From the NCBI RefSeq assembly GCF_004341945.1, contig NZ_SMBP01000021.1, positions 1 to 55,909 of the forward strand: a DNA stretch of 55,909 nt, read 5' to 3'. The notes under the pieces were generated by a model. That model had not been told where the DNA came from and searched no databases. It saw nothing but the letters and a program-made list of their open reading frames with translations. This DNA is from Longicatena caecimuris (lineage in GTDB: Bacteria; Bacillota_I; Bacilli_A; Erysipelotrichales; Erysipelotrichaceae). Below are positions 168 to 16,074 of the stretch, one piece after another. Position 1 is the first letter of the stretch; each line of letters opens with the position of its first letter. Both the position numbers and the translations under genes were made by a program.

Positions 168-1721
168 ATGGAGAAAGAAACCGGTTATTTAATTATGGCA
201 AGGAAGATGGCATATTGTTATCTTTTTCTGTTCAACAGTTTATTTCTATTCTGGTTTACCGACTATTATTATAATCTGAATGATTCTAAATACTATTTTT
301 ATATCACAATTACCGCAATCACGTTACTGATTAGCGGTGTGTTGTATGCTCTACATAAGCTACAGCTAAAAAAAGATAATCAAACAACGACATGGAAACA
401 ACTTATACATTTATCGATTACGGATAAATTGCTTTTTCTATGCCTTTGCAGTTATTTGATAACAACCATAATAAGTTCTTATCCAAGTGCTTCTTGCTAT
501 GGCATGATCCGTCATACCGGTCTTATCTTTGCTCTTTTTTTAGCAGGGACATATGCGATCGTTTCGCGTCTATACCAGCAACAACAATCGATTCTTTTAC
601 TATTTTTAGGCAGTGTAGGCGTGGTTGTTATTATCGGCATGTTGCAATTTTTCAACATTGATCCACTTGGTTTTTTTCAAGAGGTGAGTGATTATCAAAG
701 TAACTTTTATTTATCAACCATGGGAAATATTAATTTCTTTTCATCCTTGATTTGTCTTTCTTTACCCTTAACTATCGTTTTATATTTATATTGTGAGAAT
801 ACAACTAGTAAGATTCTATATTCCATCAGTATGATCCTTTGTTTTATCGGGCTTATGATTGCGAATAGTGATAGTGGTTATTTCGGCATTTTTACCCTCT
901 TGTTAATTATCGCCTACTTCGCTTTAAAAAACATACAGTACCTAAAACGCTATTTTATTGTTCTCTTATATTTTTTAGGTACTTTCAAGCTGATGGGAAT
1001 TCTTATCTATTTTATGCAAGATAGCTGCAGAGAATTGCATACGTTTTCACACTTTATCGCTTATCGCCCAATCACATGGATTTTTCTTGTTATCGTGGGG
1101 ATTGCGTATCTCTTGATGGATGTTTACACAAGCCCTTGTGAAAAGTATTTTAAAGGTATTCAAAAAGTAGGGCGAGGATTGTTGTTACTGATTGTTATCC
1201 TAGCGATAGGACTTTTTCTGTATTATTCCTTTATCGATACAAAACAGCCATTAGGCACCTTTGCTAACTATCTGCGTTATAATGATGCATGGGGTACGGG
1301 AAGAGGATTGATCTGGAATCGGGTGCTCTACAGTTATACACAGCTGCCATTTCTTCAGCTTTTATTCGGACATGGGCTTGATACGACACGGCTTTTACTA
1401 ATTGATACATTTGGTGAAACCATGGCTCTATATGATAATGCCCATAATGAAATCTTACAATACTTAGTGACAACCGGCATCGTAGGCTTGTTATGCTATC
1501 TTTCGACATTGATCAGCAGTTTAAAACGTCTTTGGATATTTATAAAAAAAGAACCGTATGCTTTTGCCATCGCCGCGACAATGCTTTGCTATTTCATACA
1601 AGCAATCGTAAATATCAATCAGCCAATTACAACACCGTTCTTATTTATGTTTTTAGGAATAGGAGAATCTTTTATCCGACAAGAACAAACACAACCCATT
1701 AAACAAGATGTAAATAATTAA
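168..1721 (+). CDS. O-antigen ligase/polymerase-like membrane protein (Wzy_C family)
   Basis: A 517-residue polytopic membrane protein with about a dozen hydrophobic segments and a large loop near residues 360-430. The loop contains LFGHGLDTTR followed by YDNAHNEILQYLVTTG, the Wzy_C-type motif of O-antigen ligases and polysaccharide polymerases that act on lipid-linked glycans at the outer face of the membrane. A GGGGAG ribosome site lies about 8 bases before the ATG. It is transcribed alone, between the group II intron tail and a terminator at 1860-1923. Substrate cannot be told from sequence; a wall or capsular polymer fits the teichoic acid-type genes further along. The family is fairly certain, the exact reaction is not. 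Confidence 0.75.
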   Translation: MEKETGYLIMARKMAYCYLFLFNSLFLFWFTDYYYNLNDSKYYFYITITAITLLISGVLYALHKLQLKKDNQTTTWKQLIHLSITDKLLFLCLCSYLITTIISSYPSASCYGMIRHTGLIFALFLAGTYAIVSRLYQQQQSILLLFLGSVGVVVIIGMLQFFNIDPLGFFQEVSDYQSNFYLSTMGNINFFSSLICLSLPLTIVLYLYCENTTSKILYSISMILCFIGLMIANSDSGYFGIFTLLLIIAYFALKNIQYLKRYFIVLLYFLGTFKLMGILIYFMQDSCRELHTFSHFIAYRPITWIFLVIVGIAYLLMDVYTSPCEKYFKGIQKVGRGLLLLIVILAIGLFLYYSFIDTKQPLGTFANYLRYNDAWGTGRGLIWNRVLYSYTQLPFLQLLFGHGLDTTRLLLIDTFGETMALYDNAHNEILQYLVTTGIVGLLCYLSTLISSLKRLWIFIKKEPYAFAIAATMLCYFIQAIVNINQPITTPFLFMFLGIGESFIRQEQTQPIKQDVNN

Positions 1722-1859: not shown

Positions 1860-1923
1860 AAGCCTGTCGTATATCAGCTTTGATTTTAGCGTTTTAAGAT
1901 ATAGGAAATCAGGGCTTTTTTTT
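1860..1923 (+). terminator. Intrinsic terminator after the ligase-like gene
   Basis: AAGCCTG (1860) pairs with CAGGGCTT (1910), and the inner arms TATATC and GATATA also pair. A run of eight or more T follows. The T-tract overlaps the 3' end of the convergent carboxypeptidase gene, where it reads as its Lys-rich tail. Confidence 0.7.
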
Positions 1924-3159
1924 CATTGGTTTTTGCTTGTTTTTCGTTATGAGAATCGGCGGCTTTGATTGTCTTCTTTTTTTCATGATTAGCCAAAGAA
2001 TTAAGATGATAAGGAGAGTGGCAATCACATATACACTGATTGCGATATGCCAGCCATCACTGATAATTTCATATGTTGTCGTAGTATTCTTTGTTTTTAT
2101 GGTAAGGATACCGACAACATCATTTGGTTTGACAATCATTTTCTGATTAGTTGAAACAAATGTTTTTTCATAAGCGTTAAAGACGCCCTGTGGAGCTTCG
2201 ATATAGATGTCGGAAGGAAGAGCGACATGAAAGGAAGGCGTTAAGATATTCCCTTTGATTGCAACCGTATCTCCTTTTTTATAAATTATTTTCTTTTGAT
2301 AATTCGTAAAATACCATTGATATAAATGAGCGGCATCAACTACGTGATTGGTGTGCTTTTCATCAATGGGAGCTTCCGCGCTCACTATCACCACACGACG
2401 CCCATCTTTTTCAGCGGTACTTGCTAAATTTAATCCGGTTTCATCCATAGAGCCACTTTTTGCCCCGGTAATATAAGAATGATCCAACTTTGCTTTATCA
2501 AATGTAGCATACACAAAGTTTTCAGCAATGCGCTCTTCAAAGGCATTCGTTTTTATTTTCACTTGATCACTTGCAACTATCTTTTGAAAGATGGGATTCT
2601 CCATAGCGTAATCCATAAGGAGGGCCATATCTTTTACAGTAGTATAATGTTGTTTATCGTATTTTCCATATACATTCGTAAAATGTGTGTCTTGTAAATG
2701 CAATTCTTTTGCTTTGTTATTCATGAGATCGACAAAATCTTTCGTATTACCGGTAGTATAGCGTGCTAGCATTTCAGCTGCATCACTTCCTGATGCCAAC
2801 ATCATACAGGATAAAGCATCCTGTATACGCATTCTTTCACCGATCAATAGCCCTGCAATGCTAGCTTCATCGCGAATAACCTTAGTATCTGATGGCACTG
2901 CTTCAACAATTTTATCAAAGTGCTTCGTATTTTCGATTACCACGATTGCCGTCATGATTTTTGTCATCGATGCCGGATAAATACGTTTCTTTATATTTTT
3001 TGCGAAAAGTATTTCTTTCGTATCACGATTCATGACGATAACATCTTTACTTTTTAATGTGGCAGCTATTGCATCTTGCGTATTCTCCTTAGCATGTAGG
3101 ACATTCATGTTCATAACAAGAAAACAGCTAAGTAACATAGATAGGAAAAGCTTTCTCAT
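1909..3159 (-). CDS. Serine-type D-Ala-D-Ala carboxypeptidase (DacA/DacF-like, peptidase S11)
   Basis: Trims the terminal D-Ala from peptidoglycan stem peptides outside the cell. With the start chosen here (416 residues), a signal peptide covers residues 1-23 (ending LHA). The S11 motifs follow in order: SMTK with catalytic Ser64 and Lys67, SGS at 123-125 in place of the usual SxN, and KSG at 234-236 in place of KTG. A single membrane helix near 370-392 and a very Lys-rich tail close the protein, a membrane-anchored layout as in DacA/DacF. AGGGTGA just before ATG at 3159 favours this start over an ATG 18 bases upstream. The two variant motifs are conservative; Ser in the second position of KTG is tolerated in some S11 enzymes. 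Confidence 0.9.
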   Translation of the reverse strand: MRKLFLSMLLSCFLVMNMNVLHAKENTQDAIAATLKSKDVIVMNRDTKEILFAKNIKKRIYPASMTKIMTAIVVIENTKHFDKIVEAVPSDTKVIRDEASIAGLLIGERMRIQDALSCMMLASGSDAAEMLARYTTGNTKDFVDLMNNKAKELHLQDTHFTNVYGKYDKQHYTTVKDMALLMDYAMENPIFQKIVASDQVKIKTNAFEERIAENFVYATFDKAKLDHSYITGAKSGSMDETGLNLASTAEKDGRRVVIVSAEAPIDEKHTNHVVDAAHLYQWYFTNYQKKIIYKKGDTVAIKGNILTPSFHVALPSDIYIEAPQGVFNAYEKTFVSTNQKMIVKPNDVVGILTIKTKNTTTTYEIISDGWHIAISVYVIATLLIILILWLIMKKRRQSKPPILITKNKQKPMKKKP

Positions 3160-3272
3160 TTTCATCACCCTAATCATCTCTTTAATAGTAACATAGACTT
3201 TATCAAAATCAAGAAATTTCCCTATTTCAAAAATTCAGATATAAGCGTTTAGGAATATCCTTATGTGGATAT

Positions 3273-5075
3273 ATGCCGCTACATGCAAATACGAAGGAAA
3301 CAAAAGACGAGATAATTAAAACAGCAGCTTTTGATTACAAAGAAAATAGTAATAATACGACAATAACGGCAACTTTTGATTTTCGCATGACGGATAATAG
3401 AAATTATTTTAAGTATAATAGGAAAACAAATAAAAATGATCATTATGATACAGGCATTTATGGTACGATTGAATCAGTCAAAGCCGGTTATGATCATACG
3501 AATTTTACGGTGGACTATTATAATTATTATAACTATACAGCAACGGGAGAAATTCAAAAAGTAAATACGTGGCTGGAATATGCCATAAAAGAGTATAACA
3601 TGGCAAAACAAAAGAATAAGATTACGACCTTTGTATTTCCTACCCAAGAGTTATCAGATGGCGATGATGCTTTTCTTAATTATATGCGAAAACACCGTTA
3701 CAAACATCCTACCGCTTTTGTCGCTTCGGAATTAGCATCGATGCAGAAACTATCGATCCCTTTGGTATTTCATTCGGGGTATGATTTACATCTTTACGAC
3801 TATAACATGAGTTTTCAGAAAATTACCAATACAAATGGTTCTTTTACCCCATCAGCCCATGACCAAATCATGAATAACAAACTGGAGGCATATGTAAAGA
3901 GCCATGATGTGAATGCGCCTTACCTCATTGAAGTAAATGCCAATTCGCAAATCATGCCAGGTACAGCGAATGTTCATATGCGCGCGGAAAATCTGGCGAA
4001 TGGTTATTATAATCTTTATAACTATAATCCAATTAATAATGCTATTTCTTATGTAGGAAGAGCTGTGGAAAAGGATGATGTCCTTTCTTTTACAACTTCT
4101 CAGAAGGGTTTATTCTTCTTAACAAAAGAAAAAGTGATGAAGGCCACCGCAAAGGGATATCGCGGTACTTATGATGGGAAGGCACATACCATCAATCTCA
4201 GTGGTTATCCATCAGGCAGTAAGATATCCTATCGTACAAGTGCAAATGGTACATGGTCAACAAAGAAACCAACAAGAACGAGTGCAGGGACAACGACGGT
4301 ATCGTACAAGATTGAGCATCCTAACTATAAGGCTTTAACGGGCAGTGCTAAGATCGAAGTCTTAGGACGCAATATCGCAAAAGGATCCATAACAGGATTA
4401 AGCACAAGAACATATACCGGTAAACGCATCAATCCTAATGTTATGGTGAAATATGGTTCGACAACATTAATAAAGGGAAAAGACTATACACTGTCTTATG
4501 GTGAAAATACCAACGCTGGAAAAGGAAGCGTAAAGATTAGTGGAAAAGGTAACTATACCGGCACAATCTCCAAAACATTTACGATCAATAAACGAAGCGT
4601 GTCTACATTAAGCTATAACAGTCTTTCTACAAGAACTTATACAGGAAAGGCGATCAAACCATCCATTACGGTGAAATATGGGAAGACGACCTTAAAAAAC
4701 GGACGTGATTACACACTGTCTTATGGAAAAAATGTAGCTACTGGCAAAGGCACAGTAAAAATCACTGGAAAAGGCAACTATCGTGGAACAATCACAAGAA
4801 GCTTTAAGATCGTACCGAAAAAACCAAGTGTGAGTATCAAGGCAGGTAAAGGAAGCTTAAAGGTGACAGCCAAAGCCACCGGAGCAAGTGGGTATCAAAT
4901 AGCTTATGCTACAAGTGCTAAAGGAAAACTGAAGTATGTGACAAGTGGTACAAGTAAAACCTTAAAACTATCAAGAAATAAGACGTATTATGTAAAAGTA
5001 AGAGCTTATAAGACGATAGATGGTAAAAAGTATTATGGCGCTTACAGTACGCTGAAACCTAGTAAGACTAAGTAA
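3273..5075 (+). CDS. Surface protein with Ig-like and FN3-like repeats, 5'-truncated
   Basis: A 600-residue protein read from the first ATG. Residues 1-280 match the unrecognised N-terminal domain of the 5218-7077 protein (shared YNYTATGEIQ, VNTWLEYAI, GLFFLTKEK). Then come a YDGKAH-type repeat, two YTGKxIxP Ig-like repeats and a C-terminal FN3-like domain ending YGAYSTLKPSKTK. No signal peptide is encoded from this ATG and no good ribosome site precedes it. The frame stays open back to 3192 and reads GISLCGYMPLHA, which resembles the second half of the signal peptides of the later family members, but contains no ATG, GTG or TTG. The gene has probably lost its true 5' end and may not be secreted. 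It is divergent from the carboxypeptidase gene. Confidence 0.7.
   Translation: MPLHANTKETKDEIIKTAAFDYKENSNNTTITATFDFRMTDNRNYFKYNRKTNKNDHYDTGIYGTIESVKAGYDHTNFTVDYYNYYNYTATGEIQKVNTWLEYAIKEYNMAKQKNKITTFVFPTQELSDGDDAFLNYMRKHRYKHPTAFVASELASMQKLSIPLVFHSGYDLHLYDYNMSFQKITNTNGSFTPSAHDQIMNNKLEAYVKSHDVNAPYLIEVNANSQIMPGTANVHMRAENLANGYYNLYNYNPINNAISYVGRAVEKDDVLSFTTSQKGLFFLTKEKVMKATAKGYRGTYDGKAHTINLSGYPSGSKISYRTSANGTWSTKKPTRTSAGTTTVSYKIEHPNYKALTGSAKIEVLGRNIAKGSITGLSTRTYTGKRINPNVMVKYGSTTLIKGKDYTLSYGENTNAGKGSVKISGKGNYTGTISKTFTINKRSVSTLSYNSLSTRTYTGKAIKPSITVKYGKTTLKNGRDYTLSYGKNVATGKGTVKITGKGNYRGTITRSFKIVPKKPSVSIKAGKGSLKVTAKATGASGYQIAYATSAKGKLKYVTSGTSKTLKLSRNKTYYVKVRAYKTIDGKKYYGAYSTLKPSKTK
4521..5039 (+). repeat. 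C-terminal cassette repeat, copy A
   Basis: A 519-base segment encoding the end of one Ig-like repeat, one full Ig-like repeat and the FN3-like domain. It aligns without gaps, at visibly high identity, with 13326-13844 and 15520-16038. The identity is at DNA level, including silent positions. Confidence 0.85.
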
Positions 5076-5082
5076 ATATAAG

Positions 5083-5128
5083 AAAACACTGGATTTACCT
5101 TTCGTGTAAGTAGATACAGTGTTTTTTT
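5083..5128 (+). terminator. Intrinsic terminator
   Basis: AAAACACTG (5083-5091) pairs with CAGTGTTTT (5117-5125) and is followed by a T-run. It closes the gene ending at 5075. Confidence 0.8.
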
Positions 5129-5151
5129 TATGAGCGATGAACAAAAAGGGA

Positions 5152-5180
5152 TTATCAAAATAGGGAAAGTAAGATATAAT
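5152..5180 (+). promoter_or_regulatory. Promoter of the 5218-7077 surface protein
   Basis: TATAAT at 5175-5180 with TTATCA at 5152-5157 (four of six consensus bases), 17-base spacer. The start codon at 5218 follows with a GAGGGG ribosome site. Confidence 0.6.
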
Positions 5181-5217
5181 AAAACCAAGAAAAGAAAAGG
5201 GATAAGTTGAGGGGTTT

Positions 5218-7077
5218 ATGAAAAATATTGAAATTAATTTTAGCAGCTTTCAATGGAAAAAGACAATGATTGCTATTGTGGTCAGTGCTGTATGTATTTC
5301 CATGTTTAATAGCCATACAGTTGTTGCCATGAGCAAGGCAGCAACCTATACTACAAGGAGTGCAATTGCTACATTTGATATTCCATTACGTTCTCATGAT
5401 GAATATTTTTATTATAAAGATGAACATAATGCGCATGGAAAAAATGGCAAAGGAACGATCACAGCCGTAAAAGGCGGTTTACATAATACGGATTTTAAAG
5501 TCGATTATACAGATTTTTATAACTATACGGCAACAGGTGAAATACAGCAGCCTGATCAGTGGCTGAAGTATGCAATGAATGAGTATACTCGAGCAAAGCA
5601 GAAAAATAAGATCAATACGTTTGTCTTACCTACGCGCAATAATTTAGACTTATCTGATACGGCGAATGCCTTTGGCCAATGGCAATCCATTACCTATCGC
5701 AAAATGCACCCAACGACTTTTTCCTCAACCGAATTAAAAGCTCTGCAAACACTCCAAGTACCTGTTGTTTTTCATGCCGGAGATCATAGCTTTGTCTATG
5801 ATTACAGTATGAGCTTTCAGGATATAACAAAAACCAGCGGATCTTTTAAACCTTCCGTAAAAGATCAAGTCACAAACACACAGTTAACAACCTATTTGAA
5901 GGCACATAATGTCACAAACGCATATGCCATCGAAGTCAATAAAGGATCAGAAATCATTCCGGGTGTTGCACATGTTTTCATGCGAACCAAAGGGCTTGCG
6001 GATGGCAATTATAACTTATATAGCTTTAATCCTAACAAGAGTACGATTTCATATGCCGGAAGAGCCATTCAGCAATCGGGAATCTTAGACTTTAAAACTA
6101 ATAAAAAAGGATTGTTTTTCCTAACAAAAGAAAAAACCAGTAAAGTGATGGCCAAAGGCTATACCGGAGTCTATGATGGCAAGGCACATAGTATAAGTTT
6201 AAGCGCATATCCTGCCGGAAGCACTGTGTCTTATAAAGTAGGTGCTAATGGTACATGGACAACGAAAAAGCCGACAAGGACACAAGCAGGTTCTGCAACG
6301 ATCTATTTTAAAATAGAACATCCAAGCTATCGGGCATTGCAAAGTTTTGCCAGAATTTCGATAAGTAAGAAAAGTTTAGCAGCAGCAAAAGTTAGTGGGA
6401 TTGTAAATAAATCTTATACAGGCCAGCCAATCAAACAAAGTCCTGTTGTCACATTAGGTACAACGACTTTAAAAAATGGTCGTGATTATAAGGTTGCCTA
6501 TGCCAATAATGTAGCAGTGGGAAGCGCCTCTATGATCATACTGGGAGCCGGAAATTACAGCGGTACCATTTATAAATCTTTCACGATTACAAAAAGCAAT
6601 GTAGCAAAACTAAGTGTTTCAGGTTTGGTGAATAAAGCATATACAGGAAAAACAATTAAGCCTGCCATTACCGTGAAAAATGGCAAAACAACATTAAAAT
6701 CCGGTAAAAATTATACGATCACCTATGGGAAAAACACAGCAGTCGGAATCGGTACAGTGAAAATCATCGGTAAAGGAAATTATACCGGAAGTGTTACGAA
6801 AACATTCCAAATCGTGCCTGTAAAACCAACGGTCAGTATCGTACCTGGCAACGCCAGTTTAAAAATTACGGCAAAAGCAAAAGGTGCCGGCAGTTATCAA
6901 ATAGCTTATGCCACAAGTGCCAAAGGAAAACTGAAGTATGTCACAAGTGGTACGAGTAAAACGTTAAAGCTATCAAGAAATAAGACGTATTATGTAAAAG
7001 TAAGAGCTTATAAGATCGTTGGCAATAAAAAATGCTATAGCTCTTACAGCACGTTAAGATGCATAAGAACGAAATAA
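5218..7077 (+). CDS. Secreted surface protein with Ig-like repeats and FN3-like C-terminus
   Basis: A 619-residue protein. Residues 1-40 form a signal peptide with an extended charged N-terminus (hydrophobic core TMIAIVVSAVCISMF, likely cut after VVAMSKA). Residues about 45-300 are a domain I do not recognise, shared only with 3273-5075 in this window. A YDGKAH-type repeat (about 312-380), two YTGKxIKP Ig-like repeats (about 385-540) and an FN3-like domain (about 540-619) follow. There is no LPxTG sorting motif, so attachment may be non-covalent. The repeats are more diverged in DNA than in the other three genes, but the last 180 bases are nearly identical to them. An adhesin-like role is inference from architecture. 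Confidence 0.75.
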   Translation: MKNIEINFSSFQWKKTMIAIVVSAVCISMFNSHTVVAMSKAATYTTRSAIATFDIPLRSHDEYFYYKDEHNAHGKNGKGTITAVKGGLHNTDFKVDYTDFYNYTATGEIQQPDQWLKYAMNEYTRAKQKNKINTFVLPTRNNLDLSDTANAFGQWQSITYRKMHPTTFSSTELKALQTLQVPVVFHAGDHSFVYDYSMSFQDITKTSGSFKPSVKDQVTNTQLTTYLKAHNVTNAYAIEVNKGSEIIPGVAHVFMRTKGLADGNYNLYSFNPNKSTISYAGRAIQQSGILDFKTNKKGLFFLTKEKTSKVMAKGYTGVYDGKAHSISLSAYPAGSTVSYKVGANGTWTTKKPTRTQAGSATIYFKIEHPSYRALQSFARISISKKSLAAAKVSGIVNKSYTGQPIKQSPVVTLGTTTLKNGRDYKVAYANNVAVGSASMIILGAGNYSGTIYKSFTITKSNVAKLSVSGLVNKAYTGKTIKPAITVKNGKTTLKSGKNYTITYGKNTAVGIGTVKIIGKGNYTGSVTKTFQIVPVKPTVSIVPGNASLKITAKAKGAGSYQIAYATSAKGKLKYVTSGTSKTLKLSRNKTYYVKVRAYKIVGNKKCYSSYSTLRCIRTK

Positions 7078-7102
7078 TAAGAATCTGAATAGCGATGAAA
7101 AT

Positions 7103-7143
7103 AGCGTTTAGCCAATCATCTTCTAATTGGTTAAACGCTTTTC
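7103..7143 (+). terminator. Intrinsic terminator
   Basis: AGCGTTTAGCCAAT (7103-7116) pairs with ATTGGTTAAACGCT (7126-7139, one G-T pair) and is followed by TTTT. It separates the surface gene from the signalling operon. Confidence 0.8.
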
Positions 7144-7201
7144 CTATATAGTGCAGCAATTGTAAGGATATATTGTAAAAATATCGCAATTCATGTAATT
7201 A

Positions 7202-7268: not shown

Positions 7269-8060
7269 ATGAATGTTGCTGTTTATAATTTTTTATATGC
7301 AATTGCCGTCACCTATTATCTTGATACTCTCTTGACAAGAGCTCATGGAAAAACTTCCTTGTGTATTCATCTTATCTGTAATTTGTTTAGTTCCATTGTT
7401 ATTATGAATATTTTTTATGAAGAACTCTTGATGCGCGAATTCTTATATTTTAGCAGTTTGCTTTTTATTATCTGCTTCTTATATAAAGATCGTTTATTAT
7501 GGAGAATGGTCGTTCTGGTAATCCTTATGCTGATGGTTCCAATCTTTGAAATACCTCTGGATCTTTATGTAATAAATTGCACCACGTATTCACCTGAAGT
7601 GTTTTTACAACAGTATCCGCTAACCATGCCATTATTAGGGCTTTGGAATTTTATCGGTTTATGGCTAGTGTCATATTTTTTAAGAAAAAGACGACAAACG
7701 GTTTTACACATAAATGTTTATCTGACAGTGCTGCTTTTATCTTATTTCGTATTAATATTTTTTATACCGTTGTTAATTTACTTGCAAGATTTTTTAGAAG
7801 CACAATCACCAGTTTTATTGATGATGGAAATCTTGCTGCTATGGGGAAATCATTATGTATTGAAAAAATACTATGACAGTATGCTGCAAATCAAGCGAAT
7901 GCAAAGTAATACACAGGCGATGTTAGAAGAGGTTGAACAGATGAAGGAGTATAAGGTGGAATATAAGCAGATCTTGCGTCATGACTTAAAAAATCAATTA
8001 GCGGCATTAGAACGCATGTATAGAAAAGATAATACTATTGAAAGAAGGGAAGATGAATAA
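7269..8060 (+). CDS. Membrane sensor 1 with histidine box, no ATPase domain
   Basis: A 263-residue protein with six to seven membrane segments in residues 1-200, a coiled-coil linker (about 203-232) and an AgrC/GHKL-type histidine box QILRHDLKNQLAAL with His238. The protein stops 25 residues after this His, so the second dimerisation helix and the whole ATPase domain are missing. The end is not a random break: its last codons (GAAGGGAAG) form the ribosome site for the next gene, which starts 2 bases after the stop. It is paralogous to 8063-8884 and 9572-10384. It is likely a receptor subunit that supplies the phosphoacceptor His to the catalytic subunit at 10359. Ligand unknown; no AgrB/AgrD-like gene is nearby. 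Confidence 0.75.
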   Translation: MNVAVYNFLYAIAVTYYLDTLLTRAHGKTSLCIHLICNLFSSIVIMNIFYEELLMREFLYFSSLLFIICFLYKDRLLWRMVVLVILMLMVPIFEIPLDLYVINCTTYSPEVFLQQYPLTMPLLGLWNFIGLWLVSYFLRKRRQTVLHINVYLTVLLLSYFVLIFFIPLLIYLQDFLEAQSPVLLMMEILLLWGNHYVLKKYYDSMLQIKRMQSNTQAMLEEVEQMKEYKVEYKQILRHDLKNQLAALERMYRKDNTIERREDE

Positions 8061-8062
8061 GA

Positions 8063-8884
8063 ATGCAAACAGCGTATACATCTTTAAATTTTTTAATTTA
8101 TAATGTGCTCTTATCGATTGGCATTGCTTGTTTCTTTGATTCTTTACTAGAACGAAAATATAAGAAACTGTCTTTGCCTGCATGTATCATTATTTGCTCT
8201 GTGGCAGCTCTGATTACCGAAACCATACTTATCCATCAAGTAGTGATGCGTAATATTTTTACATATGTATGTTGGTATTTCGCTCAACATATCTTTTATA
8301 AAGGATCAGCAAAACGATATGTCTTCCATATTCTAGTAATCAGTTGTCTGTTGATCTTGTCGGAATTGCCATTTGACTTTGTGCTGTTATTACTAAATGG
8401 GGATATCGCTTCTTTTTATGCAGAGCATATGGATGTTATCTTTCTATCACTTCTTTTGATATACCCATGCATGGTTTTATGTTCTCGCAGTATACGAAAA
8501 AGAGACCATCTTTCCATATCAATCGACCTGTATTTATGGATAATCTTTCTATTAACCTTCTTTATGATTGTATTGTTCCCGTTATTTGTTATTATCGGCG
8601 GTTATTATAAAAATGATATGCGAATATGTTTTGTATTGGCAATGGCCTGCTTAGTCGGAAGTGTGATTACCCTATGGGGGTATGTGCGAAAGAAAAGGAG
8701 TGAATTAGCATTCCATAACCACCAAGTATTTTATACAGAAGTGAATGAACAGTATTTAAACGATGTAAAGAAAAGAAATGAATATGTACGACTTTTTCGC
8801 CATGATTTGCAAAATCAATTAGAAATAGTCAAAACATTACAGAGGAGGAAGAATGATGATGCAACTCGTAGTCGTAGAAGATGA
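8063..8884 (+). CDS. Membrane sensor 2 with histidine box, no ATPase domain
   Basis: A 273-residue paralogue of the previous protein. It has six or so membrane segments (to about residue 215), a short linker, then LFRHDLQNQLEIV with His247. It ends 26 residues later in a very basic tail (RSRRR), with no ATPase domain. Its 3' end overlaps the response regulator gene by 32 bases, and the AGAGGAGGAAGA in its final codons is that gene's ribosome site, so this end is under selection as it stands. The inner pattern before the fourth helix (ELPFDF) matches sensors 1 (EIPLDL) and 3 (EFLFDF). Confidence 0.75.
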   Translation: MQTAYTSLNFLIYNVLLSIGIACFFDSLLERKYKKLSLPACIIICSVAALITETILIHQVVMRNIFTYVCWYFAQHIFYKGSAKRYVFHILVISCLLILSELPFDFVLLLLNGDIASFYAEHMDVIFLSLLLIYPCMVLCSRSIRKRDHLSISIDLYLWIIFLLTFFMIVLFPLFVIIGGYYKNDMRICFVLAMACLVGSVITLWGYVRKKRSELAFHNHQVFYTEVNEQYLNDVKKRNEYVRLFRHDLQNQLEIVKTLQRRKNDDATRSRRR

Positions 8885-9569
8885 ATATATCCAATTGGAA
8901 GAATATCGAACATTATGTGAACAATATTTGCAAGGGGAGCAATATAAAATCACTTGTTATATGGATGCTGAAGGTTTGCAAGAACATATGAAATTAGGGA
9001 AGGGGATAGATATTCTCATTATGGATATTCGTCTGTCAAATGCCAATGGTATTGAACTAGCAAAACAAGTTAAGCGGATCTACCCGCATACGGCAGTTAT
9101 TTTTATAAGCGCTTATTTAGCGTACGCTCCTTTTGTGTATGAAGTTGACCATGTCTATTTCATTTATAAAAAAAATACCTTAAATCGCTTTCCTAAAGCA
9201 CTGGCAAAAGCCATTAAACATTATCACAATAAAGAGCGTAACATATTGCCGATTCATTGGAAAAAAGAAGTTATCTTATTAAGTATTCCCGATATTATTT
9301 ATATCGAACGGGAAGGACGTAAAACAAATATTATTATGTGTGATGAAGAACAAACCGTTTATCAGAAGATCGATGATATTATGAATCAATTGCCGGAGGA
9401 TTTATTTATTCGTATTCATCATAGCTTTATCATCAATTTTGATTACATTCGTTCGTTTTCAAGAGATAAAATTATTATGAAAAACGGAAAAGAATTGCCT
9501 GTCAGTCGAAGCTATGAAAAAGCCGCAAAAGAAAAAATTTATCATCTAATGGATGAAAGCATGGTGTAG
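8853..9569 (+). CDS. LytTR-family response regulator (AgrA/LytR-like)
   Basis: A 238-residue two-domain regulator. The receiver domain (residues 1-120) has the acidic pair EDE near residue 10, the phosphorylatable Asp58 (ILIMDIRLS), Ser in FISAY and the conserved Lys in YFIYKKN. The LytTR DNA-binding domain (about 130-236) has the typical YIEREGRKT and FIRIHHSFIIN segments. It is the only response regulator in the window and lies between sensors 2 and 3. Three ATGs lie in tandem; the second (8856) or third has the better distance to the ribosome site. LytTR proteins usually bind paired direct repeats upstream of exported-peptide or surface genes; no convincing site was identified here. Confidence 0.92.
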   Translation: MMMQLVVVEDEYIQLEEYRTLCEQYLQGEQYKITCYMDAEGLQEHMKLGKGIDILIMDIRLSNANGIELAKQVKRIYPHTAVIFISAYLAYAPFVYEVDHVYFIYKKNTLNRFPKALAKAIKHYHNKERNILPIHWKKEVILLSIPDIIYIEREGRKTNIIMCDEEQTVYQKIDDIMNQLPEDLFIRIHHSFIINFDYIRSFSRDKIIMKNGKELPVSRSYEKAAKEKIYHLMDESMV

Positions 9570-9571
9570 TT

Positions 9572-10384
9572 ATGAATATCTTATCAGTTACATCTTTTCA
9601 GCTATTTTACCAGACAATGTTAAACATCGTATTCGTATGGTTTTGCTATCGCTGCCTTACTTTCAAAGGGAAACTATGGCAATACGGCATTTTCGCGCTC
9701 ATCTTTATGATTTGTGATACGTTGCCATTTTTGTCAAGTGACAGAGTCGTACGATCACTGATTGCATATACGTTAATGTTTGGTTTTGTCATCTTCTTAT
9801 TTAAAGATCAATTTAAATATCAACTATTTGTCATGATTACATATCTTATGATTTTGTTCTTACCGGAATTTCTATTCGATTTTGTTGTTATGTATGGTTT
9901 TCATATTGATATATTGACGATATTGTTGGAACAACCATGGGTATATGGCATATGCTTTCTGATTACTTGGGGCTTTGCTTATCTTGTACAAAAAATCCTA
10001 CGTTCATATTTTCTAACAACACCACCCCAAAATCCGGAATATTTGTTATTATTGTGTGCCAGCGGAATGTTTACTATTTTTTTAGCACCGGTATTTTATT
10101 TACTTTGCTGTCCGAAAAACGAAATCAACTACTTTATAACAGGAATTGTCCAAAGTGTCTTTTTTATCATCTTTTGTTATGAAGCACATCATGTCAGTCT
10201 TATGTATCAAAGACAAGAAAAGGTAAAAGCATCTTATGCTTCTTATGAATTGTTATTAAGAAATTGTGAAGATAATCGAATGTACCAGCATGTATTACAT
10301 CATGATTTACAAAATTATATGGAAACAGCACATATGCTGTTACATCAGGAGGAACAGCATGGTTCAATTTTTAAAGAAGAATAA
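9572..10384 (+). CDS. Membrane sensor 3 with histidine box, no ATPase domain
   Basis: A 270-residue protein, third paralogue of the sensor family, with six or so membrane segments up to about residue 208. It ends in HVLHHDLQNYMETAHMLL with the box His at residue 244, stopping 26 residues later. RHD of the other two sensors is HHD here. It starts 2 bases after the response regulator stop. The last 26 bases overlap the catalytic subunit gene, and CAGGAGGAACAGC inside its coding sequence serves as that gene's ribosome site. Three receptors feeding one regulator suggests three signals or heteromeric receptors. Confidence 0.75.
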   Translation: MNILSVTSFQLFYQTMLNIVFVWFCYRCLTFKGKLWQYGIFALIFMICDTLPFLSSDRVVRSLIAYTLMFGFVIFLFKDQFKYQLFVMITYLMILFLPEFLFDFVVMYGFHIDILTILLEQPWVYGICFLITWGFAYLVQKILRSYFLTTPPQNPEYLLLLCASGMFTIFLAPVFYLLCCPKNEINYFITGIVQSVFFIIFCYEAHHVSLMYQRQEKVKASYASYELLLRNCEDNRMYQHVLHHDLQNYMETAHMLLHQEEQHGSIFKEE

Positions 10385-11225
10385 GGAAATCGGTTTATTA
10401 GGTATCATGCAAGTGCTGATCTTCATTGTTTTAGCATTTGGACAATGGCATAAAACAAGTGATATGTATGTATTTGCAGGAGTATTCTTATTGCAGGTCA
10501 TTTCCTGCATCGTGCTATATTATTTATTTCGTAAAATATTTCGCAACATTGAAGAAGAGAAAAAACAAAGTATGCTGCTGAAGCAACAAAAGTATGCCGA
10601 AGAACACAAAAAGGTGAAAGCGCAATTGGATGATCAATTGGAGGATATCAAAGAGCAAGTTTCACATATGTTAAAAAATCTACAAATGAATGCAGATAAA
10701 ATGAGTGAAAAAGCGTTCCATGAAGCGGTAAATGAGATTATTTCCAACAGTGAGCAGCTTTATCAAGTAGATTTTTGTGATAACAAAACGATAGATGCTA
10801 TCCTGTATAATAAATCACTCTTAGCGAAAAGCTTGCACATTCCTTTTGATATCCAAGTGCAAATACCACAACAGCTCAATATTGCATATGTCGACCTGAT
10901 ATGTGTCTATGCGAACTTATTAGATAATGCAATTGAGGCAAATTGTCAAGTTGATGAAACACAGCGCATGTTAAAAATAACTTCGGCATTAAAAATGAAT
11001 CAGCTGATCGTTAAGGTAGAAAACGCAAAACCTGCCAATCTACACATTGATAAAAACAGCGGGAAAACGACAAAAACAGACACGAGTGAACCGCATGGAC
11101 TGGGGTTAAAAATTTTACAGCGGACAGCTGAAAAGTATCATGGCGATATGTTAATCCAGGATAAGGGACATGAGGTAAGCGTCAGCGTGTTTATGGAAAA
11201 TGTAAATGTTGGTACCATATCGTAA
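10359..11225 (+). CDS. GHKL-type histidine kinase catalytic subunit with two membrane helices
   Basis: A 288-residue protein. Two membrane helices (about 11-28 and 38-57) join a charged helical linker (60-100). The DHp-like region around VSHMLKNLQM (His103) lacks the Asp/Glu that normally follows the phosphoacceptor His. An AgrC-like FCDNKTIDAIL (139-149) leads into the ATPase domain, with N-box NLLDNAIEA (186-194) and G-box EPHGLGLKIL (244-253). The ATPase motifs look intact. The start at 10359 follows AGGAGG and overlaps sensor 3; an upstream in-frame ATG at 10266 lies within sensor 3. It probably provides ATPase activity to the three sensors, either phosphorylating their histidines in trans or using His103 itself. 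Confidence 0.8.
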   Translation: MVQFLKKNKEIGLLGIMQVLIFIVLAFGQWHKTSDMYVFAGVFLLQVISCIVLYYLFRKIFRNIEEEKKQSMLLKQQKYAEEHKKVKAQLDDQLEDIKEQVSHMLKNLQMNADKMSEKAFHEAVNEIISNSEQLYQVDFCDNKTIDAILYNKSLLAKSLHIPFDIQVQIPQQLNIAYVDLICVYANLLDNAIEANCQVDETQRMLKITSALKMNQLIVKVENAKPANLHIDKNSGKTTKTDTSEPHGLGLKILQRTAEKYHGDMLIQDKGHEVSVSVFMENVNVGTIS

Positions 11226-11321: not shown

Positions 11322-13880
11322 ATGAAAAAGATTTTAAAAGGTATTTTTGCAGGTGTATTGTCAATATCTTGTATGATGTTGCCAGTCGATGTGGAAAATA
11401 CAACATTAGGGATGTCAAAGGTAAAGGCAGCAGAAGATGATGGATATCAAGTTGTTGACTTTGATGCTTCGGATAGTATGGAAGGTGCAGCCGTTACGAA
11501 AAATGGTAGTCTCTATATGTGGGGACGTAATACGAATGGCGAAGTAGGGGACAATACGACGACTGCCAAACATATGCCAACGCGCATTATGGGGGATGTC
11601 AAGGCGGTTGAAAAAAAAGCAAGGTCAACCGTTATTTTAAAAACAGATGGAAGTATATATACTAATGGATCAAATCGATATGGAGATTTGGGTATTTCAG
11701 CATCTTGGGATACTAAGAAACTTACACCAACGAAAATTATGAGTGATGTCAAAACCTATATACCGGGATCAGATTGTGCTGCTATAAAGAAAAATGGCGA
11801 TCTGTATACATGGGGCGGTGATTCTTTGTCTGCGATGACGGGTCAAGGAAGTAAAACGAGCACACCACCTAAAAAATTAATAAGTAATGCTGTGAAGTAT
11901 AAAAGTTATAAATATTATACCGGAGCTTTATCTGCAACGGACAATTTATACCTATGGGGAACTGGTGAAAATGGTCAGATGAAATTGGATGATGTGGCAG
12001 ACTTTGACATAAAAGATCAATTCTGGGGTGTTTTGAAAACTAATGGTGATTTATTCTTATGGGGAAATAATCATAATGGGCAAATCGGTAATGGAACGAA
12101 TACGGAACAAGACACACCAGTAAAAGTCATGAGTGATGTAGTGTCTTTTTGCATAAACAACGATCGTACTGCCACTATTAAAAAAGATGGTTCTCTATAT
12201 ATGTGGGGTAAAAACTTTTATGGTGAAATTGGTAATGGGAATGATATGGAATATGAAGTGACGAAGCCAGTAAAGATTATGGATAATGTAAAGTCGGTTT
12301 CTTTATTTCAAAATGTTACGGCAGTTATTACAAAAGATGATGACTTATATATGTTTGGCAATAATGATAATGGCTTAATAGGTAATGGGCAAGCAATGGG
12401 AAATCAAAAAAGGCCGGTTAAAATATTATCAAACATTGCATCTATCGAGTTATCAATTTGTAATGGTCTTGCTTTATCGAATAACGGAGAAGTCTATACA
12501 TGGGGATTTAATTCTTTTGGACAATTAGGAAATGGAACTAAGACGAATTCTACTAAGCCGATAAAAGTTTTAACAAATGTCAAAAAAGTTAAATTAGTAG
12601 ATAACTCTGTTTTAGCGTTAATGTATACAGGTGAGCTTTATGCGTGGGGTGGAAATATAGGATTTTTATTAGGGAATACAGGCTCTGTCTCGACACCAAG
12701 CAAAATCGTACTGCCAAAAGTAAAAAGTCTTTCACAAGCAACGATGAGTAGTATCAATTCTGTGACCTATACAGGGAAAGAAATAAAACCTTCTGTCACT
12801 GTAAAATACGGTGACAAGGTATTACTGAATAATACGGATTATACGATAACATATAAGAATAATACCAATGCTGGTAACGCATCGGTTATCATAACAGGAA
12901 AAGGGAACTTTACAGGTAGCATAGCAAAAAGTTTTGTGATAAAGAAACGCGGCATAGAAAAGTTTTCATGTACAATGGGAAGTAAATATTCCTATGCAGG
13001 AGGACAAATCAAACCATCGATTACCATAAAAGATGGTACGAAAACGTTAAAGAATGGAACAGATTATACAGTTTCTTATGGAAAGAATACCTCATTAGGC
13101 AAAGGAACGGTAAAAATCAGTGGGAAAGGGAATTATACCGGTTCGATTTCAAAGACATTTACAATTAGCAAACGAAGTGTTACCACATTAAGCTATGGCG
13201 GACTTTCTGCAAGAACCTATACGGGAAAGGCCATCAAACCATCCATTAGCGTGAAGTATGGGAAAACGACCTTAAAGAATGGGCGCGATTATACGATTTC
13301 TTATGGAAAGAATATTTCACCTGGTAAAGGAAGCGTAAAGATTAGTGGAAAAGGCAACTATACCGGCACGATCACCAAAACATTTACGATCAATAAACGA
13401 AGCGTATCCACATTAAGCTATAACAGTCTTTCTACTAGAACTTATACAGGAAAGGCCATCAAACCATCCATTACGGTGAAATATGGAAAGACGACCTTGA
13501 AAAACGGACGTGATTACACATTGTCTTATGGAAAAAATGTAGCTACTGGCAAAGGCACAGTAAAAATCAGCGGGAAAGGCAACTATAGTGGAACAATCAC
13601 TAGAAGCTTTAAAATCGTACCGAAAAAACCAAGTGTGAGTATCAAGGCAGGCAAAGGAAGCCTAAAGGTGACAGCCAAAGCCACCGGAGCAAGTGGGTAT
13701 CAAATAGCTTATGCCACAAGTGCTAAAGGAAAACTGAAGTATGTGACAAGTGGTACAAGTAAAACCTTAAAACTATCAAGAAATAAAACGTATTATGTAA
13801 AAGTAAGAGCTTATAAGACAATGGATGGTAAAAAGTATTATGGCTCTTATAGTTCGATGAAACGGATAAAGACAAAATAA
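11322..13880 (+). CDS. Secreted RCC1-like beta-propeller protein with Ig-like and FN3-like repeats
   Basis: An 852-residue protein with a signal peptide (MKKILKGIFAGVLSISCMML; cleavage probably after VKA near residue 35). Residues about 38-465 hold nine RCC1-type repeats with the core LYxWGxNxxGxxGNG (for example LYMWGRNTNGEVGDN, LFLWGNNHNGQIGNG, VYTWGFNSFGQLGNG), expected to form a beta-propeller. Four YTGKxIKP-type Ig-like repeats (about 470-765) and a FN3-like domain (about 768-852) follow. RCC1 propellers usually bind proteins or glycans; the ligand is unknown. AAAGGTGG precedes the ATG. The gene is 28 bases upstream of the LRR protein gene and probably co-transcribed with it. Confidence 0.85.
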   Translation: MKKILKGIFAGVLSISCMMLPVDVENTTLGMSKVKAAEDDGYQVVDFDASDSMEGAAVTKNGSLYMWGRNTNGEVGDNTTTAKHMPTRIMGDVKAVEKKARSTVILKTDGSIYTNGSNRYGDLGISASWDTKKLTPTKIMSDVKTYIPGSDCAAIKKNGDLYTWGGDSLSAMTGQGSKTSTPPKKLISNAVKYKSYKYYTGALSATDNLYLWGTGENGQMKLDDVADFDIKDQFWGVLKTNGDLFLWGNNHNGQIGNGTNTEQDTPVKVMSDVVSFCINNDRTATIKKDGSLYMWGKNFYGEIGNGNDMEYEVTKPVKIMDNVKSVSLFQNVTAVITKDDDLYMFGNNDNGLIGNGQAMGNQKRPVKILSNIASIELSICNGLALSNNGEVYTWGFNSFGQLGNGTKTNSTKPIKVLTNVKKVKLVDNSVLALMYTGELYAWGGNIGFLLGNTGSVSTPSKIVLPKVKSLSQATMSSINSVTYTGKEIKPSVTVKYGDKVLLNNTDYTITYKNNTNAGNASVIITGKGNFTGSIAKSFVIKKRGIEKFSCTMGSKYSYAGGQIKPSITIKDGTKTLKNGTDYTVSYGKNTSLGKGTVKISGKGNYTGSISKTFTISKRSVTTLSYGGLSARTYTGKAIKPSISVKYGKTTLKNGRDYTISYGKNISPGKGSVKISGKGNYTGTITKTFTINKRSVSTLSYNSLSTRTYTGKAIKPSITVKYGKTTLKNGRDYTLSYGKNVATGKGTVKISGKGNYSGTITRSFKIVPKKPSVSIKAGKGSLKVTAKATGASGYQIAYATSAKGKLKYVTSGTSKTLKLSRNKTYYVKVRAYKTMDGKKYYGSYSSMKRIKTK
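13005..13844 (+). repeat. Long C-terminal repeat, copy B
   Basis: About 840 bases encoding almost three Ig-like repeats and the FN3-like domain. They align without gaps, at very high visible identity, with 15199-16038 (constant offset 2194 bases). The last 519 bases also match 4521-5039. Confidence 0.9.
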
Positions 13881-13908
13881 TTGATTATTGAGAAAGGGTG
13901 TATAGCAG

Positions 13909-16074
13909 ATGATTAAAAAAATTATAATAAGTATGATTATTGGGATATTGTCGATGTCTTGTATGACGTTGCCGATAGAGGGGAAAACGCGGAGTTATTC
14001 AGAGGTAAGCAAAGCTGCAGATGATTTCTATGATGGCTATCAATATGATGTAACAACAGACTGTTATTTTAGGCATATTCCTTATGAAGATGCATATGTA
14101 GAAGTGTTATTACCTAAAGATACAGAGGTATTTACCTTGCCTGCCAAAATTGCAGGCTATCCAGTAAAAGAACTGGCTATTAAAAGAAATGCCTATGGCC
14201 TTGATAAATATGCGGAAGTATATAATAAGTTAAAAGAAATCAATGTAGCGATAGATAATGCTTATTTTTCTAGTCTGAATGGGGTACTTTATGATAAAGG
14301 AAAAACTACATTACGATACTATCCGGCAGGAAAACCGGAAACTAGCTTTAAGGTACCAGCGAATGTAAAAGAGGTAGAGAATTTTGCTTTTATTTCTAAT
14401 CGTTATTTACAGACGTTGGATACTGGAAACTTGACTTCTATTGGTTTTGGAGCTTTTTATGATTCTAATATTCAAAAATTAAAAATTAATAAGGCATTAA
14501 AAGATATCGCTTTTGGAGTAGCTATTTCTAATATGCCACCTGCATTCGGTAAATGCAAACAGCTAAAAGCGTTTGAAGTTGATGCCGAAAATCAAAATTT
14601 TTCAACTATTGATGGTGTTCTTTTCAATAAAGACTGTTCTAAACTCATATATTATCCAAATGCGAAAGGACAATCTTATACTGTTCCTAATAATACAAAA
14701 ACAATATCGCAATATGCATTTTGGCTAAGCGGATATGATAGTGGTGAGATGAAACAACTAACAATTGGGAAAAATGTGACAAATTTCGTTGATGATGTCA
14801 GAACATCAGCTTTTAGTGGATGTGTGAAAGCATCCATAAGATGCTATAAAGATTCTTATGCATATACTATATGTCAGCAAAAAGGATTGAATGTTATAAC
14901 GATACCGGAAAAGATATCACTGAATTGTGCATCAAAAGCATTAGAGAAAAACGCAACGTATACTTTTAAACTAACGACTTCACCTACTAGCGCATCTAAA
15001 TCCGTTACGTGGAGGACAGGTAACAGTAAAGTAGCCAAAATTGATAATAATGGTAAAGTAACTGCTGTAAATGCAGGTAATACTTATATATATGCGAAAA
15101 CACCAGAAGGGTTAGAAGTGAAGGCAAAGATTACGGTCATTCTCCCATCCATAACAAAGACTAATATTACAGTAAAAAACAGTATGTTTACTGGCTCACA
15201 AATCAAACCATCTATTACCATAAAAGATGGTACGAAAACGTTAAAGAATGGAACAGATTATACAGTTTCTTATGGGAAGAATACCTCATTAGGCAAAGGA
15301 ACGGTAAAAATCAGTGGGAAAGGGAATTATTCCGGTTCGATTTCAAAAACATTTACAATTAGCAAACGAAGTGTTACCACATTAAGCTATGGCGGACTTT
15401 CTGCAAGAACCTATACGGGAAAGGCGATCAAACCATCCATTAGCGTGAAGTATGGGAAAACAACCTTAAAGAATGGGCGCGATTATACGATTTCTTATGG
15501 AAAGAATATTTCACCTGGTAAAGGAAGTGTAAAGATTAGTGGAAAAGGTAACTATACCGGCACAATCGTTAAAACATTTACGATCAATAAACGAAGCGTA
15601 TCCACACTAAGCTATAACAGTCTTTCTACTAGAACCTATACAGGAAAGGCCATCAAACCATCCATTACGGTGAAATATGGAAAGACGACCTTGAAAAACG
15701 GACGTGATTACACACTGTCTTATGGAAAAAATGTAGCTACTGGCAAAGGCACAGTAAAAATCACTGGAAAAGGCAACTATAGTGGAACAATCACTAGAAG
15801 CTTTAAAATCGTACCGAAAAAACCAAGTGTGAGTATCAAGGCAGGCAAAGGAAGCTTAAAGGTGACAGCCAAAGCCACCGGAGCAAGTGGGTATCAAATA
15901 GCTTATGCCACAAGTGCTAAAGGAAAACTGAAGTATGTGACAAGTGGTACAAGTAAAACCTTAAAACTATCAAGAAATAAGACGTATTATATAAAAGTAA
16001 GAGCTTATAAGACAATGGATGGTAAAAAGTATTATGGCTCTTATAGTTCGATGAAACCTTGCAAAACAAAGTAA
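13909..16074 (+). CDS. Secreted BspA-like LRR protein with Big2, Ig-like and FN3-like domains
   Basis: A 721-residue protein with a signal peptide (MIKKIIISMIIGILSMSCMT). Residues about 40-330 hold LRR_5/BspA-type repeats (YYPAGKPETSFKVPANVKEV, AFISNRYLQTLDTGNLTSI, YTVPNNTKTISQYAF). A bacterial Ig-like group 2 domain spans about 332-415 (SVTWRTGNSKVAKID, GKVTAVNAGNTYIYA). Three YTGKxIKP-type repeats (about 418-635) and a FN3-like domain (about 637-721) follow. BspA-like LRR proteins in gut and oral bacteria are commonly adhesins. The C-terminal half is nearly identical in DNA to the previous gene while the N-terminal heads differ entirely, so head domains appear exchanged on a common tail. 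Confidence 0.85.
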   Translation: MIKKIIISMIIGILSMSCMTLPIEGKTRSYSEVSKAADDFYDGYQYDVTTDCYFRHIPYEDAYVEVLLPKDTEVFTLPAKIAGYPVKELAIKRNAYGLDKYAEVYNKLKEINVAIDNAYFSSLNGVLYDKGKTTLRYYPAGKPETSFKVPANVKEVENFAFISNRYLQTLDTGNLTSIGFGAFYDSNIQKLKINKALKDIAFGVAISNMPPAFGKCKQLKAFEVDAENQNFSTIDGVLFNKDCSKLIYYPNAKGQSYTVPNNTKTISQYAFWLSGYDSGEMKQLTIGKNVTNFVDDVRTSAFSGCVKASIRCYKDSYAYTICQQKGLNVITIPEKISLNCASKALEKNATYTFKLTTSPTSASKSVTWRTGNSKVAKIDNNGKVTAVNAGNTYIYAKTPEGLEVKAKITVILPSITKTNITVKNSMFTGSQIKPSITIKDGTKTLKNGTDYTVSYGKNTSLGKGTVKISGKGNYSGSISKTFTISKRSVTTLSYGGLSARTYTGKAIKPSISVKYGKTTLKNGRDYTISYGKNISPGKGSVKISGKGNYTGTIVKTFTINKRSVSTLSYNSLSTRTYTGKAIKPSITVKYGKTTLKNGRDYTLSYGKNVATGKGTVKITGKGNYSGTITRSFKIVPKKPSVSIKAGKGSLKVTAKATGASGYQIAYATSAKGKLKYVTSGTSKTLKLSRNKTYYIKVRAYKTMDGKKYYGSYSSMKPCKTK
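15199..16038 (+). repeat. Long C-terminal repeat, copy C
   Basis: Direct-repeat partner of 13005-13844, 2194 bases downstream, in the same reading frame relation. Recombination between the two would delete one head domain and leave an intact hybrid gene. Confidence 0.9.

Follow-up and report, generated by a model that had tools for sequence, protein, structure and literature searches.

A family of split AgrC-type receptor kinases in which several truncated sensors probably share one ATPase subunit

Here, we report an operon of Longicatena caecimuris, and a family of related loci, in which the parts of an AgrC-type receptor histidine kinase are divided between truncated membrane sensors that carry the H-box histidine and a separate membrane protein, K, that carries the ATPase domain. 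Sequence comparisons make it quite likely that this set is a naturally split receptor kinase, in which K would phosphorylate the sensor His in trans and several receptors would share one ATPase. The split set is conserved and more general than the window alone (the window being the whole 55,909-nt stretch of DNA analysed), and we infer its function with fair confidence. To our knowledge, each receptor among the known receptor histidine kinases owns its ATPase. A natural family with a shared ATPase implies that multi-input sensing can evolve by duplication of the receptor half alone.

Organization of the operon

The operon encodes three membrane sensors (S1–S3), a response regulator (RR) and the ATPase subunit K (Table 1). 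Re-reading of the open reading frames and of the sequence confirmed the five genes, their sizes and the three H-box histidines described in an earlier note on this DNA. The sensor chains end 25 (S1), 26 (S2) and 26 (S3) residues after the H-box His, as that note had approximately stated, and a Pfam scan yielded no domain above the cut-off in any of the three. Because each chain stops just past the H-box helix, a sensor would carry the acceptor His and be unable to bind ATP. The genes are tightly joined, with gaps of 2 bases between S1 and S2 and between RR and S3, overlaps of 32 bases between S2 and RR and of 26 bases between S3 and K, and AGGAGG-type ribosome sites, read directly from the sequence, inside the ends of the S2 and S3 genes, much as the earlier note had described. 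These gaps and overlaps leave no place behind S1, S2 or S3 in which a lost ATPase fragment could hide.

Table 1 Features of the split-kinase operon on contig NZ_SMBP01000021.1 (Longicatena caecimuris).
Feature	Position	Strand	Description
S1 membrane sensor	7269..8060	+	263 aa; H-box HDLKN; His238 codon 7980-7982; without ATPase domain
S2 membrane sensor	8063..8884	+	273 aa; H-box HDLQN; His247 codon 8801-8803; S1 paralogue
RR response regulator	8853..9569	+	238 aa; Pfam Response_reg 1.8e-13, LytTR 5.7e-22
S3 membrane sensor	9572..10384	+	270 aa; H-box HDLQN; His244 codon 10301-10303
K ATPase subunit	10359..11225	+	288 aa from ATG; two TM helices; Pfam HATPase_c_5 1.8e-18
K N-box NLLDNAIEA	10914..10940	+	K residues 186-194; intact
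K G-box HGLG	11094..11105	+	K residues 246-249; intact
K His103 (SHMLKN)	10665..10667	+	the one His close to the lost acceptor site; not a conserved residue of the K family

The set has the parts of an AgrC-type kinase. S1, S2 and S3 each present an HDxxN H-box behind a polytopic membrane sensor, K has an HATPase_c_5 domain with N and G boxes (N186, D189, N190, H246, G247 and G249), and RR is a LytTR-type partner; the GHKL ATPase domain with intact boxes in a two-helix protein and the LytTR regulator among its neighbours had both been recognized correctly beforehand. What departs from AgrC is the chain itself, in that sensor, H-box and ATPase are divided over S1–S3 and K instead of being joined in one protein. 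In its anatomy the operon is a split kinase in the sense of CheA3/CheA4, with His and ATPase on separate proteins and reciprocal loss across the family, the window K having the lone, non-conserved His103. The Pfam scan found no CheA-type domains; the set would work like CheA3/CheA4 but falls outside the CheA family. A search of the same genome recovered no further truncated sensors, the next matches being full-length kinases. A reading of the listed open reading frames near the operon, unsystematic for the small ones, turned up no AgrB/AgrD-like gene.

Sensors and K as halves of one kinase

Profile–profile comparison with a 432-column profile of full-length kinases places the sensors on columns 6–284 (E 1.5e-20) and K on columns 164–429 (E 3.3e-47). 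By these alignments, the sensors and K are overlapping halves of one AgrC-type kinase, K keeping the last two membrane helices, the linker and a DHp domain that lacks the His. The earlier note had described K as the catalytic subunit; its ATPase domain stands, and the description is refined by a DHp-like helical region, devoid of a conserved His, that K retains beyond that domain. Residues N186, D189, N190 and A194 of the N-box and H246, G247 and G249 of the G-box are invariant or nearly so across the K family. The acceptor column, by contrast, holds His in 30 of 31 full-length kinases and in only 1 of the 21 K that have a residue there.

Structural comparisons agree with this division. The K profile aligns with nearly the full length of the AgrC kinase module 6e52 (E 1.3e-8), and the same entry is the best PDB fold match of an AlphaFold2 model of K (pLDDT 77, pTM 0.51). 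The sensor profile touches only the first helix of 6e52 (residues 28–76), with a weak E of 0.42. The model of S3 (pLDDT 80, pTM 0.63) consists of a helical transmembrane bundle and a long helix that ends at the H-box, without an ATPase domain; a fold search with the sensor model returned no match. For two sensors of the family, the AgrC model aligns across the sensor and H-box regions, though with scores well under its cut-off (E 1.9e-7 and 5e-4). In a sample of 26 sensors, all matches to kinase models were weak and below threshold, so annotation pipelines are likely to miss such sensors.

The loss of the acceptor His from K bears on an alternative in which K is its own substrate, at His103 or elsewhere in the chain, and is regulated allosterically by the sensors, the H-boxes of which would be leftovers serving packing only. 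His103 lies in the right region of the window K, near the acceptor position, which leaves self-phosphorylation some room, and a few other K, those of L088, L089 and L113, also have a single His in its vicinity. These residues, however, fall in different alignment columns, most K have none, and His103 is followed by M, not D. Packing alone would not explain the sensors either: in an alignment of 26 sensors with a mean column identity of 24%, the H-box shows no change at H or D and almost none at N (a smaller alignment for H-box conservation held 17 sensors). We consider this alternative quite improbable and favour phosphorylation of the sensors by K.

How many of the window sensors would partner K is a separate matter. 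S2 matches S1 with 23% identity (E 1e-13), and the C-terminal identity among S1, S2 and S3 is 17–26%, so that they are more diverged from one another than the sensors of other loci. This divergence and the 26-base overlap of S3 with K speak for a trans-acting split with a single partner sensor (for example S3), S1 and S2 being decoys or antagonists. Yet S1 and S2 have the same HDxxN motif, and every sensor in all three- and four-sensor loci keeps the HD of the H-box, which makes a single partner unlikely in our estimate. In locus L038, the sensors share 91% C-terminal and 43% transmembrane identity, a difference that hints only faintly at a shared partner because every kinase conserves its H-box region; given the strong divergence of the window sensors, the case for a shared partner is weaker in the window than in such loci. 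We nonetheless prefer the reading in which all three sensors use K.

Distribution across the order

We searched for K in 60 relatives, extended the search with a profile to 245, and completed it over the full set of 316 genomes available to us for the order to which the window belongs. The K family comprises 22 loci in 18 of the 316 genomes, with scores of 179–312 bits, whereas other GHKL kinases reach about 146 bits at most; outside the order, no K scoring at least 179 bits was found in a class sample (395) or a phylum sample (392). The gene neighbourhood was read for all 22 loci. In 21 of them, across two families, truncated H-box sensors adjoin K, 39 sensors in total; 11 loci have a single sensor, 4 have two, 4 (the window among them) have three and 2 have four, always with one K per locus. 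A LytTR-type regulator homologous to the window RR lies close by in nearly all loci. Gene order varies, from S-S-RR-S-K in the window to RR-K-S-S-S, RR-S-K-S-S, S-S-S-S-K-RR, RR-S-K, RR-K-S-S and S-K-RR. Some loci (L086, L095) run into contig ends, and the assembly of L114 interrupts both RR and K.

Recurrence of the same division in 21 of 22 homologous loci is more than chance would give. The three-receptor, one-ATPase set singled out in the earlier note is thus real, but this genome is not alone in having it, as the set belongs to a family. The recurrence also bears on the possibility that K has its role elsewhere and that the sensors receive phosphate from other, full-length kinases of the genome or serve as phosphate sinks or phosphatases. 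Full-length GHKL kinases do exist in the genome (frames of 394–444 aa), but the adjacency of K and sensors in 21 of 22 loci, the tight junctions and the fact that each supplies exactly the half that the other is missing make this very unlikely, and we retain K as the kinase of its neighbouring sensors.

Several loci depart from the common arrangement. The one locus without a neighbouring sensor (L113, in G758, 5559–7162) has RR and a K with EHDMEH near, but off, the acceptor column. L036 (12089–15688, in G043), the second split set on its contig, has proteins of 372 aa and 70 aa, the latter with two helices, between K and RR. In L047 (4204–6100, in G024), a 474-aa membrane sensor ending after MRHNVLHH is followed by a 150-aa ATPase-only frame; this could be a split of a different type or a kinase that has been interrupted.

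A search of genome contigs with K alone gave no match, and an alignment-based search of genome contigs recovered mostly full-length kinases, together with L121, L122 and L128. No near copy of the split set was found on plasmids, where protein-level matches were distant GHKL proteins.

Selection and origin of the split

For pairs of near relatives, with saturated pairs set aside and the window itself lacking a near relative, dN/dS was 0.07–0.26 for K, RR and each sensor. By this measure, the genes of the split operons are under purifying selection in the relatives. In a tree of ATPase domains, 17 K including that of the window form one clade (support 98) and the other 7 fall among full-length kinases; a single clade of all 24 K was not rejected (p-AU 0.68).

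The plainest objection to a split kinase is that the operon is a decayed or frameshifted remnant of former full-length kinases, and truly interrupted kinases with internal stops do occur in related genomes (G049:C53 and G084). Against this stand the same division in homologous loci, the purifying selection in relatives and the 2-base gaps with no remnant of an ATPase domain behind the sensors. We rejected a frameshift or pseudogene origin on these grounds, and the decay reading, largely contradicted, is scarcely credible. The earlier note had named as one refutation that homologous loci would encode full-length kinases and that this copy would be a recent frameshift series; in the relatives this is not the case, and its view of the truncations as fixed parts of the operon holds. 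A programmed frameshift from S3 into K was likewise rejected as a general mechanism, since K precedes the sensors in many loci; more broadly, the variable gene order excludes frameshift or read-through fusion as a general mechanism. The set is better read as a conserved division of one kinase.

Two loci from the wider search are worth recording. L122 (JAGAFR010000022.1, 978–3501), from a Lachnospiraceae rumen metagenome-assembled genome (MAG) outside the order of the window, is an RR-K-S set. L128 (CAMNRM010000001.1, 3570–7664), from a clostridial MAG, has the order RR-S-K-S; its K is a 439-aa protein with its own membrane sensor and an ATPase domain but no His box, and its two sensors, of 292 aa each and without ATPase, are both paralogous to the sensor part of that K. 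L128 looks like an evolutionary intermediate in which paralogous receptors have lost opposite functions. Searches for more loci like L128 or L122 in their relatives recovered only longer frames or the starting loci.

Proposed mechanism

The conserved division, the reciprocal loss of His and ATPase, the purifying selection in relatives, the single K beside 1–4 sensors and the rejection of a frameshift origin support the earlier proposal that an AgrC-like kinase is split here into multiple sensor/His subunits and a shared ATPase subunit. Obligatory phosphorylation in trans, with the ATPase coming from K and the His from a sensor, would be the simplest mechanism. K would be the complementary half of a sensor, comprising the last two membrane helices, a signalling helix, the His-less DHp and the ATPase domain, and a sensor may pair with K by contacts between the last membrane helices, and between the DHp helices, of the two chains. 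On binding of a ligand to a sensor, the ATPase of K would phosphorylate the His of that sensor in trans, and the phosphate would then pass, as in the family at large, to the LytTR regulator. The regulator would control target genes, conceivably those of the surface proteins on either side. AgrC protomers reportedly autophosphorylate in trans (Cisar et al. 2009), so a sensor–K heterodimer would need no new chemistry.

With one K, one regulator and 1–4 diverged sensors, the receptors would have a single ATPase and a single output to share or to compete for. One K alongside several diverged sensors suggests that several inputs would be integrated, and several signals can probably drive one regulator through one shared ATPase. 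On balance we favour, with less assurance than the split itself, the view that these loci form a distinct class: a membrane ATPase serving 1–4 exchangeable AgrC-like receptors that give only the acceptor His, whose ligands would compete or add up on one catalytic subunit and its LytTR regulator, and whose number would change as receptors are gained or lost by gene duplication.

Comparison with known systems

Among the closest known systems is AgrC of Staphylococcus aureus, whose partner is the LytTR regulator AgrA. The operon shares with it the sensor topology, the H-box, the GHKL/HATPase_c_5 ATPase domain and the LytTR partner. AgrC, however, is one chain acting as a homodimer, whereas here receptor and His are separate from the ATPase and there are several receptors per ATPase.

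The worked case of a split kinase with phosphorylation in trans is CheA3/CheA4 of Rhodobacter sphaeroides (PMC3591291). In both systems the His and ATPase functions lie on two proteins, and phosphorylation in trans would be common to both, which for the sensor–K pair we infer from sequence. In contrast, CheA3 and CheA4 are soluble, belong to chemotaxis and have CheA domains; each such kinase has a single His protein, and neither chain contains a receptor. In the loci described here, the receptor doubles as the His subunit and is present in 1–4 versions. A SMART survey listed HisKA proteins without HATPase as possible split kinases and assigned them no ATPase partner (PMC3591291). Like the sensors, those proteins have a His domain and no ATPase domain on one chain; HisKA models do not match the sensors, which would therefore have been missed by a survey based on HisKA. 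Separated domains of EnvZ, as cited in PMC3591291, indicate that separate His and ATPase domains can cooperate in vitro; that separation was engineered, unlike the natural one in this operon.

Split kinases are thus already known as a concept. A natural split of AgrC/GHKL receptor kinases in this receptor-multiplexed form was not found in the open literature searched, which mostly leaves out subscription journals, so that absence is not proof. A system in which trans phosphorylation is enforced would be useful for studies of kinase mechanism, and as a part for building sensors it would allow receptors to be swapped with the catalytic subunit untouched.

Surroundings of the operon

Four secreted repeat proteins flank the operon (3273–7077 and 11322–16074), two of them with RCC1 or Big_2/LRR_5 domains. 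They share C-terminal repeats, 300-nt copies of which are 68–98% identical, with 98% between two genes; this suggests that the surface-protein genes around the kinase locus have been duplicated or recombined. Around the operon, no LytTR-like direct repeats were found, and promoter-like sites were no more frequent than in shuffled sequence. Proteins that share repeats with these four also adjoin split loci in other genomes (L041, L042, L090 and L091), so that surface proteins are plausible targets. The two genes at the start of the window (168–1721 and 1909–3177) have homologues, with 38% and 37% identity, beside the split locus L091 of G100, so the position of the locus is partly shared between genera.
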